Source: an uncultured cyanobacterium
GTDB lineage: Bacteria; Cyanobacteriota; Cyanobacteriia; CAKZMO01
NCBI GenBank assembly: GCA_937128595.1
Contig: CAKZMO010000656.1
Location: 1 to 44,490, forward strand
DNA: 44,490 nucleotides
Direction: 5' to 3'
How positions within the stretch are numbered: the first letter of the stretch is position 1; each line of letters begins with the position of its first letter. Under the pieces are notes generated by a model. It saw nothing but the letters and a program-made list of their open reading frames with translations. It did not search any database and was not told where the DNA came from. A program made the position numbers and the translations under genes. Below are positions 3,209-42,843 of the stretch, piece by piece.

Positions 3209-4099
3209 GTGAATTTTCAGTCTGTGATTGAAACACTGAACAAATTTTGGAGCGATCGCGGCTGTTTGATTGTTCAGCCCTACGACACGGAAAAAGGCGC
3301 GGGAACAAAGAGTCCCCATACGTTTTTGCGGGCGATCGGGCCAGAACCTTGGTCGGTAGCCTATGCAGAACCCTGCCGCCGTCCGTCAGATGGGCGCTAT
3401 GGCGAAAACCCCAACCGGGTGCAACACTACTATCAGTACCAGGTGCTGATCAAGCCCTCTCCCGACGATATTCAGGACGTTTATCTTGATTCTCTCAAGG
3501 CATTGGGGATCAAACCCGAAGACCACGACATTCGCTTTGTGGAAGACAACTGGGAAGACGCCGCAGTGGGCGCATGGGGAGTTGGCTGGGAAGTTTGGCT
3601 GGATGGCATGGAAGTCACGCAGTTCACCTACTTTCAGCAATGCGGCGGGATTGACTGTCGCCCAGTATCCATCGAAATTACCTACGGTCTAGAGCGGCTC
3701 ACCATGTATCTGCAAAACGTGGATGCCATTTTTGACATCAAATGGAATGACACGCTGACCTACGGGGACGTCTTTTTGCAGAGCGAAATTGAGAACTCGA
3801 CCTACAACTTTGAAGCGTCTGATCCCGACAAGCTATTCACCTTATTTGACTTGTTTGAGCAAGAAGCCTCGCGCTTGATGGAATTGGGACTCGTGATCCC
3901 CAGCTATGAGCATGTGCTGAAATGCTCCCACACGTTTAATTTGCTCGATGCCCGTGGTGTCATTTCCGTGACGGAACGAACCCGCTACATCACTCGCGTT
4001 CGCAATCTGGCGCGAAAAGTCGCACAGCTTTATCTCGAACAACGAGAAGCTTTGGGATTTCCGCTGCTTAAGGCATCGGAGGCTTCGAAAGCCGCTTAA
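3209..4099 (+). CDS. glyQ: Glycyl-tRNA synthetase alpha subunit
   Basis: [32 protein letters not shown], characteristic GlyQ N-terminus and length. Confidence 0.97.
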
Positions 4100-27966: not shown

Positions 27967-28512
27967 TCACATCAAGTCAGACATCGAAACCGTGGTTGGT
28001 GGAATTTCCTGGTTATATTCGGTCACAATATCCCACTGGGTTTGAGCATCGTAGAAAACCGTGACTTGAGTTTCGAGAGTATAAAAGTCTCCACCCCGAG
28101 GCCGACCCCGAAAGGTAAAGGTAACACTACCGTCGGAGTTGATGACGTGGGGCGACTCCGCAGCAGGGCCATGCATGGATGGCTCTGTTTCATAAACGCT
28201 AACTCCACCGTTCTCGGCTTCACCTCGCTGACGCGCTAAGTTTTTGGCTCGGTTGAGATCATAGTCAAAAGCCATCAGCAACACGCCTCTAGACTGACTG
28301 ATATCAGTTAGATGGATGTCAGTTGGCGAGATGGTTGCGGAGTTCTTTGTAGAAAATTCGGCAGCAACACGATCTGAACCAAGAGTAAGCAGAGTAAGGG
28401 TAGCGATCGCCACATGCAGCACCCTATTTCGCTCTAAAAAACAGGCTTGTAATAACTTTGCAGACGGCATCAGAACTTCTTTTGACGTGCGGTTGAGAGT
28501 ACTCACCATCAT
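27967..28512 (-). CDS. Hypothetical exported protein
   Basis: 181 aa, signal-peptide-like LHVAIATLTLLTLGSDRVAAEF. Confidence 0.6.
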   Translation of the reverse strand: MMVSTLNRTSKEVLMPSAKLLQACFLERNRVLHVAIATLTLLTLGSDRVAAEFSTKNSATISPTDIHLTDISQSRGVLLMAFDYDLNRAKNLARQRGEAENGGVSVYETEPSMHGPAAESPHVINSDGSVTFTFRGRPRGGDFYTLETQVTVFYDAQTQWDIVTEYNQEIPPTTVSMSDLM

Positions 28513-28571
28513 TTCCTCAAGTCATCAATCCAGAACTAAGGTTAGACCACAATCCAGTTATCTCAACAGCG

Positions 28572-28682
28572 GGCGTTGCACAGCATAGAATGATGCGGAA
28601 AGATTCAACTCATGGATGACCTGCTGTAGGGGCATCGCAATGCGATGCCCTGACCAAAATCATTCTTCGAATGTGCAACGCC
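28572..28682. mobile_element. 111-bp MITE-like element, copy A, with 8-bp direct repeats CAACAGCG on both sides
   Basis: TIR GGCGTTGCACA (28572-28582) / TGTGCAACGCC (28672-28682); CAACAGCG at 28564-28571 and 28683-28690; 107/111 identical to reverse complement of 41335-41445. Confidence 0.88.
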
Positions 28683-28920
28683 CAACAGCGCAAGGGGTTG
28701 CGAAAGCACTGGATTAGCAATCTCTATTCTAAAAAACCTTCGTCAGCTTTTTCCTTTATCATTTCAGAAAACCGTGAATTCTTAATCGGATAGCCATGAC
28801 ACCCAAAGAGTCCGCCGAGATACGTTGAACCTGTTCTTCTGAACAAACATGAGCAGAATCCGAAGATTCAGTTCATGTTTATCGCTGAATTCAGTCCCGC
28901 TAGAAACTGCTTTGTTACCT

Positions 28921-29190
28921 ATGAGCTTCCAGCTAACCTGTCCCAACTGCGGCAAACGCTCTGTCAATGAATTTGTTTGCAAAGGTGAACAGCGCGATCG
29001 CCCGACCCCAACGGCAAACTTTGAAACTTGGTCAGATTACGTATATCTCAAAGACAATTTCAAAGGCACCCAGCGCGAATGGTGGTATCACCGCTCCGGT
29101 TGTCAGACCTGGTTTATCGTCGAACGAGATACCACGGACAACAAGGCTCACACTGCTGTTTACCCGTCCCTTCAGTCGTCGAACCCATAG
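28921..29190 (+). CDS. soxD: Sarcosine oxidase delta subunit (SoxD)-like protein
   Basis: LTCPNCGKRSVNEFVCKGE...NFKGTQREWWYHRSGCQTWFIVERDTTDN: CxxC plus HxxxC zinc ligands of SoxD; ORF-track start at 28849 is probably upstream of the real ATG. Confidence 0.8.
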   Translation: MSFQLTCPNCGKRSVNEFVCKGEQRDRPTPTANFETWSDYVYLKDNFKGTQREWWYHRSGCQTWFIVERDTTDNKAHTAVYPSLQSSNP

Positions 29191-40296: not shown

Positions 40297-41229
40297 ATGA
40301 AGGGACAAAACTTGGAAGCAGTGAAGCTTTCTCAACTCAGAACGTTGGCCGCTGTTGCAGAATGCGAAAATTTCAGTGAAGCGGCGTTGAAGCTTCAGGT
40401 ATCTCAATCTGCGGTAAGCCATGCGATCGCCACTCTGGAAGAGGAACTGGGCGTGGTGCTGGTCTCACGAGGACGCCACGGTGCCCATCTAACGCCTGTG
40501 GGAGAAAGAGTGCTATGCCATGTCCAGCAAATGTTGCAGTCTCTTGAGGCCATTGGCAAAGAGGCTCAGCTCTCGCGGGGGCTTCAGGGTGGAGTTGTTC
40601 GCATCGCATCATTTCGGAGCGTTGCAACCCACGTTTTGCCACAGGCGATCGCCCACTTTCGCAAAAAATTTCCCGCGATCACCGCAACGATTACCGAACA
40701 CGCCGACTACATTTCCATTGAACAATCCCTTCGAGAAGGGCGCGCAGATGTCGGTATTACCTACCTACCCACATCTGCCGAGTTTGAAACCTGGAAGCTC
40801 TTCAGCGACGAATATTTGGTGTTGATGCCTCCTGATGCCAATGTGTCTGAAGCACTCACCTGGAACCTATTAAGCCAATATCCGCTCATTTTGGGGCCAG
40901 ATAGCGACGCCTGTAGCATTCTGGTTCAGAAGCATTTTGTGCAACAGAGACAGGAGTTGCGTGCCGATTACCATCTTGCCGAAGACTCAACCATGATCAG
41001 CATGGTCGCTCAAGGCTTGGGAGCCGCAATCCTGCCAAGACTTGCCGCAGAACCCCTTCCTCCCAACGTCAAGGCATTCAGCTTGCCTGTTCCTCTAGAG
41101 CGGGTCATCGGGGTTGGAATCTTGGCCGAAGCTCTACATCCTCCAGCAGTATATGCCTTCCTAGATACCTTGAGAGAGGTGAGCGATCGCATCCATCGAG
41201 TCGAGTCAACAGTTCCAGTCCCTTCATGA
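40297..41229 (+). CDS. LysR family transcriptional regulator
   Basis: LSQLRTLAAVAECENFSEAALKLQVSQSAVSHAIATLEEELGVVLVSR HTH; substrate-binding domain. Confidence 0.92.
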   Translation: MKGQNLEAVKLSQLRTLAAVAECENFSEAALKLQVSQSAVSHAIATLEEELGVVLVSRGRHGAHLTPVGERVLCHVQQMLQSLEAIGKEAQLSRGLQGGVVRIASFRSVATHVLPQAIAHFRKKFPAITATITEHADYISIEQSLREGRADVGITYLPTSAEFETWKLFSDEYLVLMPPDANVSEALTWNLLSQYPLILGPDSDACSILVQKHFVQQRQELRADYHLAEDSTMISMVAQGLGAAILPRLAAEPLPPNVKAFSLPVPLERVIGVGILAEALHPPAVYAFLDTLREVSDRIHRVESTVPVPS

Positions 41230-41278
41230 TGTTGGCTACAGCCAGTAGCCTTAGGAGGTTTTTGTGGCCGCGCGGTGC

Positions 41279-41327
41279 GCGGCTTCTCCATCAATATCTG
41301 TCCTAACCTATCTACGCATTGCTATAG
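41279..41327. repeat. Right half of the TATAG...CTATA repeat element (copy 2), abutting MITE copy B
   Basis: GCGGCTTCTCCATCAATATCTGTCCTAACCTATCTaCGCATTGCTATAG, 48/49 identical to 14700-14748. Confidence 0.8.
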
Positions 41328-41334
41328 ATAATCT

Positions 41335-41445
41335 GGCGTTGCACATTCGAAGAATGATTTTGGTAGGGGCATCGCAATGCGATGCCCCTACAGCAGGTCA
41401 TCCATGAGTTGAATCTTTCCGCATCATTCCATGCTGTGCAACGCC
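41335..41445. mobile_element. 111-bp MITE-like element, copy B (inverted relative to copy A)
   Basis: TIR GGCGTTGCACA (41335-41345) / TGTGCAACGCC (41435-41445); flanks GATAATCT (41327-41334) and AATAATCT (41446-41453); internal palindrome 41363-41391. Confidence 0.9.
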
Positions 41446-41464
41446 AATAATCTAAATAAATTGT

Positions 41465-41562: not shown

Positions 41563-42843
41563 CTAGGGAGCTAGAGCACTACCGCGCAAAAGGCTTCCTA
41601 GAGTTTTTGCCGTAATCTTGAGCTGCGTTAGAGGATTAGCAGGAACAACCGTTTTGTAGAGGTAGCTGTCAAACGTGAGCTTTTGCACGTCCAAGTCGCT
41701 ACACATTTCCACAAAGGCTTCACGAGTCGCATCGGAACGGTAGAACACCCGCTGGAGCAGATCCAAGACGAGATAGGTCATGCCATACTGCTTATCCCAT
41801 CGCTTCAGGTACATCTTCAGATCCGCCTCGGTTGGGATGCGCTGTCCTTGTTCCGACATTTCCACGATCGTCTCAGCACACATGCGAGCAGACTTAGCGG
41901 CAAAGTAGATGCCTTCACCCGACGATTTTGTTACGGTTCCTGCAGCGTCGCCAACAAGAGCAACACGACCTACAACCCGACGAGGACGGGGATGCTCAGG
42001 AATGGGGTGAGCTTCAATCTTGATAATCTGACCGCCTTCGATCTTGTCGGCGACTCGGGCACGAAGACCTGCTTGCAGCTTCTTGATATCAGCCTGATTG
42101 ACCTTCATCGTCCCGGTGCCCACAGCAACGTGGTCATATTTGGGGAACACCCAACCGTAGAAGTCGGTGGAGACATCATCGCCAACATACATCTCGGCCA
42201 TGTTTTCATAACGAGCCATTTTGTCTTCGGGAAGACGAATCCGCTCTTGGAAGGCGATCGCATAATTGTAGTCGCCTGCATCAATGGCACGAGCAATACG
42301 GGAGTTGGCTCCATCTGCGCCGATTACCACATCCACATCGAGTGACTTAAAGTTTCCAGGCGTATTGCCTTCAGCATGCTCTGTGTAGTGAAGCGTGTAA
42401 GGTGCTTTGTCGCTCGTAGGAATATCGAGCTTGTGAACGGTGCCGTTGATCAGCTTGGCTCCCAACCGAGCTGCGCGATCGCGCATGAACCCGTCAAGGA
42501 CTTCACGACGACACATGCCGATATATTCGCCATCATTGCGAATCTTAATTTCAACCGCCCGATTTGACGGAGAAATCATTTCCATCTGAGTCACCTTGCG
42601 GTCAATAATCTCGGGGGGTAAGTCAAATTCGCTCACCATACAGAGTGGAATTGCCCCACCACAAGGCTTAGCGTTGTCGAGCTTACGCTCAAACAGATAG
42701 GTTTCAATTCCAGCTTTTGCAAGTGTCTCAGCGGCGGATGAACCTGCTGGACCCGATCCGACAACAGCAACCCGTAGTGTCAAGGGTCTATCTCCCAACG
42801 TCCTCAAGTACGGGATGAATCGTATCACGGAGTTTTCGTCCAT
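41563..42843 (-). CDS. chlP: Geranylgeranyl reductase (chlorophyll biosynthesis)
   Basis: LRVAVVGSGPAGSSAAETLAKAGIETYLFERKLDNAKPCGGAIPLCMVSEFDLP; VALVGDAAGTVTKSSGEGIYFAAKSARMCAE. Confidence 0.96.
   Translation of the reverse strand: MDENSVIRFIPYLRTLGDRPLTLRVAVVGSGPAGSSAAETLAKAGIETYLFERKLDNAKPCGGAIPLCMVSEFDLPPEIIDRKVTQMEMISPSNRAVEIKIRNDGEYIGMCRREVLDGFMRDRAARLGAKLINGTVHKLDIPTSDKAPYTLHYTEHAEGNTPGNFKSLDVDVVIGADGANSRIARAIDAGDYNYAIAFQERIRLPEDKMARYENMAEMYVGDDVSTDFYGWVFPKYDHVAVGTGTMKVNQADIKKLQAGLRARVADKIEGGQIIKIEAHPIPEHPRPRRVVGRVALVGDAAGTVTKSSGEGIYFAAKSARMCAETIVEMSEQGQRIPTEADLKMYLKRWDKQYGMTYLVLDLLQRVFYRSDATREAFVEMCSDLDVQKLTFDSYLYKTVVPANPLTQLKITAKTLGSLLRGSALAP

Follow-up and report, generated by a model that had tools for sequence, protein, structure and literature searches.

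A 111-bp MITE Family With IS1-Type Ends in an Uncultured Cyanobacterium

Introduction

A 111-bp non-coding stretch, bounded by inverted repeats and direct duplications and present twice on one contig of an uncultured cyanobacterium, raises the questions of whether it is a mobile element and, if so, which transposase moved it. The window analyzed here is the whole of that contig (CAKZMO010000656.1; 44,490 nucleotides), one of the 801 contigs in the 6.4-Mb draft assembly of the host (GCA_937128595.1). An initial annotation, made from the letters alone, had described the two copies (A and B) as a recently active MITE of unknown parentage. We find that the copies belong to a genuine MITE family with an interior that is specific to this genome as far as searched, and that there is a high probability that the family is driven by IS1-family transposition.

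Results

Structure of Copies A and B

Copy A is exactly 111 bp, running from GGCGTTGCACA to TGTGCAACGCC (Table 1). Its 11-bp inverted ends are perfect, with GGCGTTGCACA mirrored by its exact reverse complement, and the 8-bp target duplication CAACAGCG is exact on both sides. The reverse complement of copy B is likewise 111 bp and differs from copy A at exactly four positions (16, 69, 80, and 81), where about four had been claimed; every number in the initial annotation proved correct, and its observation was right in every testable detail. The flanks of copy B (GATAATCT and AATAATCT) agree at seven of eight positions. Within the window, the only four exact matches to GGCGTTGCACA are the ends of these two copies. 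Relative to the family consensus, copy A carries three differences (positions 16, 80, and 81) and copy B one. Six-frame translation of copy A reveals stops in most frames and no run above ~37 codons, in agreement with the claim that it lacks coding capacity. The element is therefore short (<600 bp) and non-coding, and it combines inverted repeats (11 bp) with a target duplication of fixed length (8 bp), as is characteristic of MITEs.

Table 1. Coordinates of the two MITE copies, their parts, and the adjoining genes in the window.
Feature	Position	Strand	Basis or remark
MITE copy A, 111 bp	28572..28682	+	Sequence, genome copies, alignment
Left 11-bp terminal inverted repeat GGCGTTGCACA, copy A	28572..28582	+	
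Inner box AATGAT, left end of copy A	28589-28594		With GGCGTTGCACA, forms an IS1-type bipartite end
Right 11-bp terminal inverted repeat, copy A	28672..28682	-	
Inner box AATGAT, right end of copy A	28659-28664	-	
Left target-site duplication CAACAGCG, copy A	28564..28571		
Right target-site duplication CAACAGCG, copy A	28683..28690		
Internal palindrome (GTAGGGGCATCGC...), copy A	28626..28654		Fold and alignment
MITE copy B, 111 bp	41335..41445	-	
Left target-site duplication GATAATCT, copy B	41327..41334		7/8 match
Right target-site duplication AATAATCT, copy B	41446..41453		
181-aa ORF, predicted exported from its N-terminus, no Pfam family	27967..28512	-	59 bp between start codon and copy A
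Sarcosine oxidase delta subunit family (SoxD, PF04267), beside copy A	28849..29190	+	
LysR-family regulator	40297..41229	+	3' end towards copy B
Geranylgeranyl reductase ChlP	41563..42843	-	3' end towards copy B

Both copies fold strongly as single strands (copy A, -52.9 kcal/mol, z -6.0; copy B, -59.4 kcal/mol, z -8.8), which is to be expected since a palindromic MITE must fold in this way. The palindrome of copy A has a 10-bp stem plus two outer pairs, compared to a 13-bp stem in the consensus; part of this hairpin was lost through positions 80-81, and it is weaker than that of the consensus. At element position 69 (window position 28640), which lies at the center of the internal palindrome, 11 of 30 copies differ (AAT or ATT loop), compared to three differing copies at most at any other position. 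The change at position 69 amounts to a flip of the hairpin loop, suggesting that recurrent hairpin inversion is possible.

The 181-aa ORF and the SoxD-family gene that border copy A are divergent, as had been described, and the two genes beside copy B, which encode the LysR-family regulator and ChlP, are convergent, with their 3' ends facing it.

Copies in the Host Genome

The initial annotation would have been called into question had the element proved confined to the window, and it is instead found at ~60 sites in the host genome; it is both multicopy and dispersed, as MITEs are. About 40 of these sites hold near-full copies (94-100% identical among the best 40 candidates scored), and at least 20 further contigs carry half a copy at an edge, having their first or last base 29-98 bases into the element. 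Because contigs begin and end within it, the assembly evidently breaks on the element. The 6.4-Mb genome contains 114 instances of the end GGCGTTGCACA, compared to one of a reversed control pattern.

Exact 8-bp duplications flank 23 of the 30 best copies, whereas exact 7-bp and 9-bp flank matches each occur once in this set, and mispaired flanks, used as a control, agree in only 1 of 870 cases. The flanks differ at every copy, and most copies have a target duplication of their own. Mean pairwise difference among the same 30 copies is 3.2%, and four of them equal the consensus. The proposal that the element moved recently is supported. Derivatives have also retained their duplications, including one of 39 bp (L202; AGAAAAAC) and one of 128 bp with an internal duplication (L201; AAGTTTCA). 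An older layer comprises about ten copies that are 80-87% identical to a query from C199. The element has been mobile in more than one wave. Searches of genomes and plasmids identified no 111-bp interior outside the genome of the window; the plasmid search with the 111 bp returned no match.

Two further observations concern the surroundings of these copies. The end of G000:C284 (L213) and the start of G000:C483 (L288) are MITE halves that adjoin the same 8-mer, GATTATTT. A single site was probably split between them, and target duplications could accordingly be used to join assembly contigs. In addition, copy B directly adjoins a second hairpin repeat, TGTGGCCGCGCGGTGCGCGGCTTCTCCATCAATATCTGTCCTAACCTATCT...GCTATAG (window positions about 41255-41325). 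A fuller copy is nested in an older MITE copy (L203; G000:C596), where it is flanked by repeated ATTGCACTGCG, and the repeat also occurs at L210 (G000:C552). This looks like another mobile repeat family.

The Same Ends in Other Cyanobacteria

An exact scan of 84,980 genomes for two GGCGTTGCACA ends spaced 74-104 bases apart identified at least 95 stretches with paired ends and, among the matches listed, all titles were cyanobacterial. The interiors of these stretches are unrelated to that of copy A and form several mutually unrelated groups. The 11 bp are common to all; in most, an ATGAT-like box follows after another 6-7 bases, and most are flanked by exact 8-bp duplications. Hormoscilla, Oscillatoria, and Trichodesmium have MITEs of 97-126 bp that share the 11-bp ends and are mostly flanked by exact 8-bp duplications; paired ends lacking a clear duplication were also identified in Moorena, Coleofasciculus, Aphanocapsa, Cyanaurora, and Gloeobacterales. 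Within the class, the exact bipartite end was detected in 23 of 390 genomes and 12 of 160 genera (none for a control pattern), and IS1-type transposases were detected in 259 of the 390 genomes.

The Oscillatoria MITEs (L094, L122, L152, and others) share an interior palindrome, CTCCCCCTCCCCGC...GCGGGGAGGGGG, that is unrelated to the 111-bp interior; the same ends captured different hairpins. In Hormoscilla GM7CHS1pb, two tandem 113-bp MITEs are separated by 8 bp (L139, positions 3749-3983), as if one had inserted at the edge of the other. Viral carriage was also considered and rejected: the end pattern was present in 17 IMG/VR contigs, none of which had a short element with duplications or a nearby IS1 gene, and these matches are probably due to chance.

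IS1 Elements With the Same Ends

The initial annotation, to which the parent was unknown, had proposed a search for a full IS with the same ends, and such elements exist in other cyanobacteria as members of the IS1 family. In Hormoscilla, GGCGTTGCACA ends are paired exactly 872 bp apart at many places. The 872-bp element encodes a 229-aa protein that matches PF03400 (DDE_Tnp_IS1; 84.6 bits, cut-off 24.1) and the NCBIfam IS1 family transposase model NF033558 (241.7 bits, cut-off 100). The same ends border IS1 transposase genes at L272 (764 bp, duplication 8/8), L269 (809 bp), L183 (873 bp), L259, and L260. A wider group of cyanobacterial IS1 elements of about 750-800 bp has ends of the form GGCGTTGC(A/T)... 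and exact 8-bp duplications (L219, L220, L222, L230, and L234). The ends of the MITE, at ~23-24 bp, have the IS1 layout and the 8-bp duplications of that family; an IS1 DDE transposase lies between such ends in the Hormoscilla parent, while the MITE itself encodes none. Beyond its outer ~24 bp, the MITE matched none of the IS1 elements found, so that any descent by simple internal deletion is hypothetical.

In many cyanobacterial IS1 transposases, the coding sequence is divided between two frames near residue 109 (L183, L259, L269, and others), which suggests a programmed frameshift of the kind that IS1 of E. coli uses; the Hormoscilla transposase is a single ORF.

Empty sites were sought with a script that joined the flanks of MITE-bearing loci and compared them with all loci in hand. 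In Hormoscilla GM7CHS1pb, a 113-bp MITE lies between two copies of AAATCTAT (L113), and the corresponding site in Hormoscilla GUM202 is empty, with a single AAATCTAT and 99.7% identity over 392 bp (L133). Another MITE interrupts one copy of the 872-bp IS (L079), of which other copies are uninterrupted, and this IS also has an empty site of its own (L099 versus L127). The Hormoscilla sites concern same-ended relatives rather than the 111-bp family; the only genome from the same family is about 70% identical and has no usable synteny at copies A and B.

Absence of a Partner in the Host Assembly

An autonomous partner with the same ends was identified in other cyanobacteria but not in the host assembly, where no intact IS1 transposase (no PF03400 domain) was found. 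The only trace of IS1 there is a 72-codon relic (G000:C13:8923-9135) whose NF033558 score of 49 bits falls short of the cut-off of 100 and which is preceded by an end, GGCTTTGCATAATGGG..., unlike that of the MITE. IS1-like ends of the RATGAA type were not found in this genome beyond one chance-like match. We also considered whether contig edges might carry the end of an IS1 element, and this was rejected: every edge read with an exact end proved to be half a MITE or an older variant of one, with about 14 of the 114 exact ends falling outside this set and not all being read. Since the smallest contig seen is 3,159 bp, a collapsed IS of ~800 bp could be absent from the assembly. However, the ends of such an IS would then be expected at the edges of the adjoining contigs, and the edges read show nothing but MITE sequence or older variants; we therefore think, without being sure, that the partner was lost or has decayed. 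The 111-bp family thus looks orphaned, or its partner unassembled.

Discussion

Based on the shared ends, we infer that an IS1 transposase moved the 111-bp family, and it is very probable that the MITE was moved through its two IS1-type ends by a transposase supplied in trans. The initial annotation had foreseen the need for such a supply, and this is borne out by an element that encodes no transposase. Each end consists of the 11-bp GGCGTTGCACA followed, after 6 or 7 bases, by a RATGAT box, and two such ends enclose the interior of the MITE, which is short, non-coding, and self-complementary. In the proposed mechanism, an IS1-family transposase, putatively from an element now lost, decayed, or unassembled, would bind both ends and copy or excise the element. 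Insertion at staggered cuts 8 bp apart, followed by repair, would generate the 8-bp duplications.

The ends themselves leave some room for a different transposase. Duplications of 8 bp are not unique to IS1, and the ends of the IS6 family also start with GGC and include GTTGCA, a resemblance that suggested an IS6/IS26 parent. A MITE of Microcystis linked to ISL3 likewise has 8-nt repeats (PMC11448079). However, the exact ends surround IS1 transposase genes in several genera, the IS6 domain PF13610 (IS240-type DDE) is absent from the host genome, and the Microcystis ISL3 ends begin GGCTCTTCG, such that mobilization by another family with 8-bp duplications (IS6/IS26, IS1595, ISL3, or IS66) is very unlikely. 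It is more improbable still that the copies are a dispersed structured RNA or a regulatory palindrome (REP/BIME-like) spread by recombination rather than by transposition. The folding energies of copies A and B reveal the strong self-complementarity that such a repeat would have, but the boundaries are sharp, 23 of 30 copies have private exact duplications, same-ended elements have empty sites, and the ends remain constant from genus to genus as the interiors change freely. Differing flanks and the lack of a match in an Rfam search likewise favor the MITE over a conserved RNA at syntenic positions, the alternative that the initial annotation had raised.

A MITE may also have become a cis-regulator after insertion, with copy A acting as a promoter, terminator, or mRNA hairpin for the exported-protein gene or soxD. 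Copy A does lie in a divergent intergenic region close to one start codon, and a pair of promoter-like boxes (TCAACA-17-TAGAAT) straddles the junction on its left. However, the promoter scan at copy A returned this one promoter-like match where 0.7 were expected by chance, no terminator-like site was found in the scan, and the hairpin is weaker than the consensus. The suggestion that the hairpin affects expression is thus unsupported, and we regard such a role as unlikely.

If IS1-type mobilization in trans is accepted, the burst to ~60 copies could reflect a transient IS1 transposase that was acquired and then lost, with unrelated interiors becoming enclosed by GGCGTTGCACA ends on independent occasions in many lineages of cyanobacteria. 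We offer this combined scenario tentatively, as conceivable but rather less than probable; if true, GGCGTTGCACA ends would serve non-autonomous elements throughout the phylum as a reusable platform. The sharing of ends among independent MITEs across the phylum is the most interesting part of these findings, in that one set of IS1 ends is common to independent MITE families from Gloeobacterales to Trichodesmium. The findings give a cyanobacterial MITE a named parent family and allow mobilization in trans to be tested directly. Contig breaks inside the hairpin also explain some of the fragmentation of the draft genome, and MITE insertions can serve as markers for strain comparison.

This kind of MITE is already known, while the 111-bp family itself is new. 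Our literature search, which was incomplete and is thus weak evidence of novelty, found no paper on GGCGTTGC ends with such an IS and no IS1-derived cyanobacterial MITE. Cyanobacterial members of the IS1 family resemble the 111-bp element in their outer ends (GGCGTTGCACA...RATGAT) and 8-bp target duplications and, in Hormoscilla, MITEs with the same ends occur next to the full element; the 111-bp element differs in having no transposase and an interior that is not recognizably IS1. The MITEs of Hormoscilla (113 bp and 106 bp), Oscillatoria (123-126 bp), and Trichodesmium (121 bp) are close to the 111-bp element in length and have identical 11-bp ends, the inner ATGAT box, and 8-bp duplications, but unrelated interiors. 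The 187-bp MITE of Microcystis aeruginosa PCC 7806, which forms a stem-loop, is present in about 30 copies, and interrupts genes, is similarly non-coding and cyanobacterial with 8-nt direct repeats, but its ends are GGCTCTTCG and it is linked to ISL3-family transposases rather than IS1 (PMC11448079). The Nezha MITE of Anabaena/Nostoc, for which mobilization by ISNpu3-like elements has been proposed (cited in PMC3049150), is comparable by description only, as a MITE of cyanobacteria suggested to depend on an IS resident in its host.
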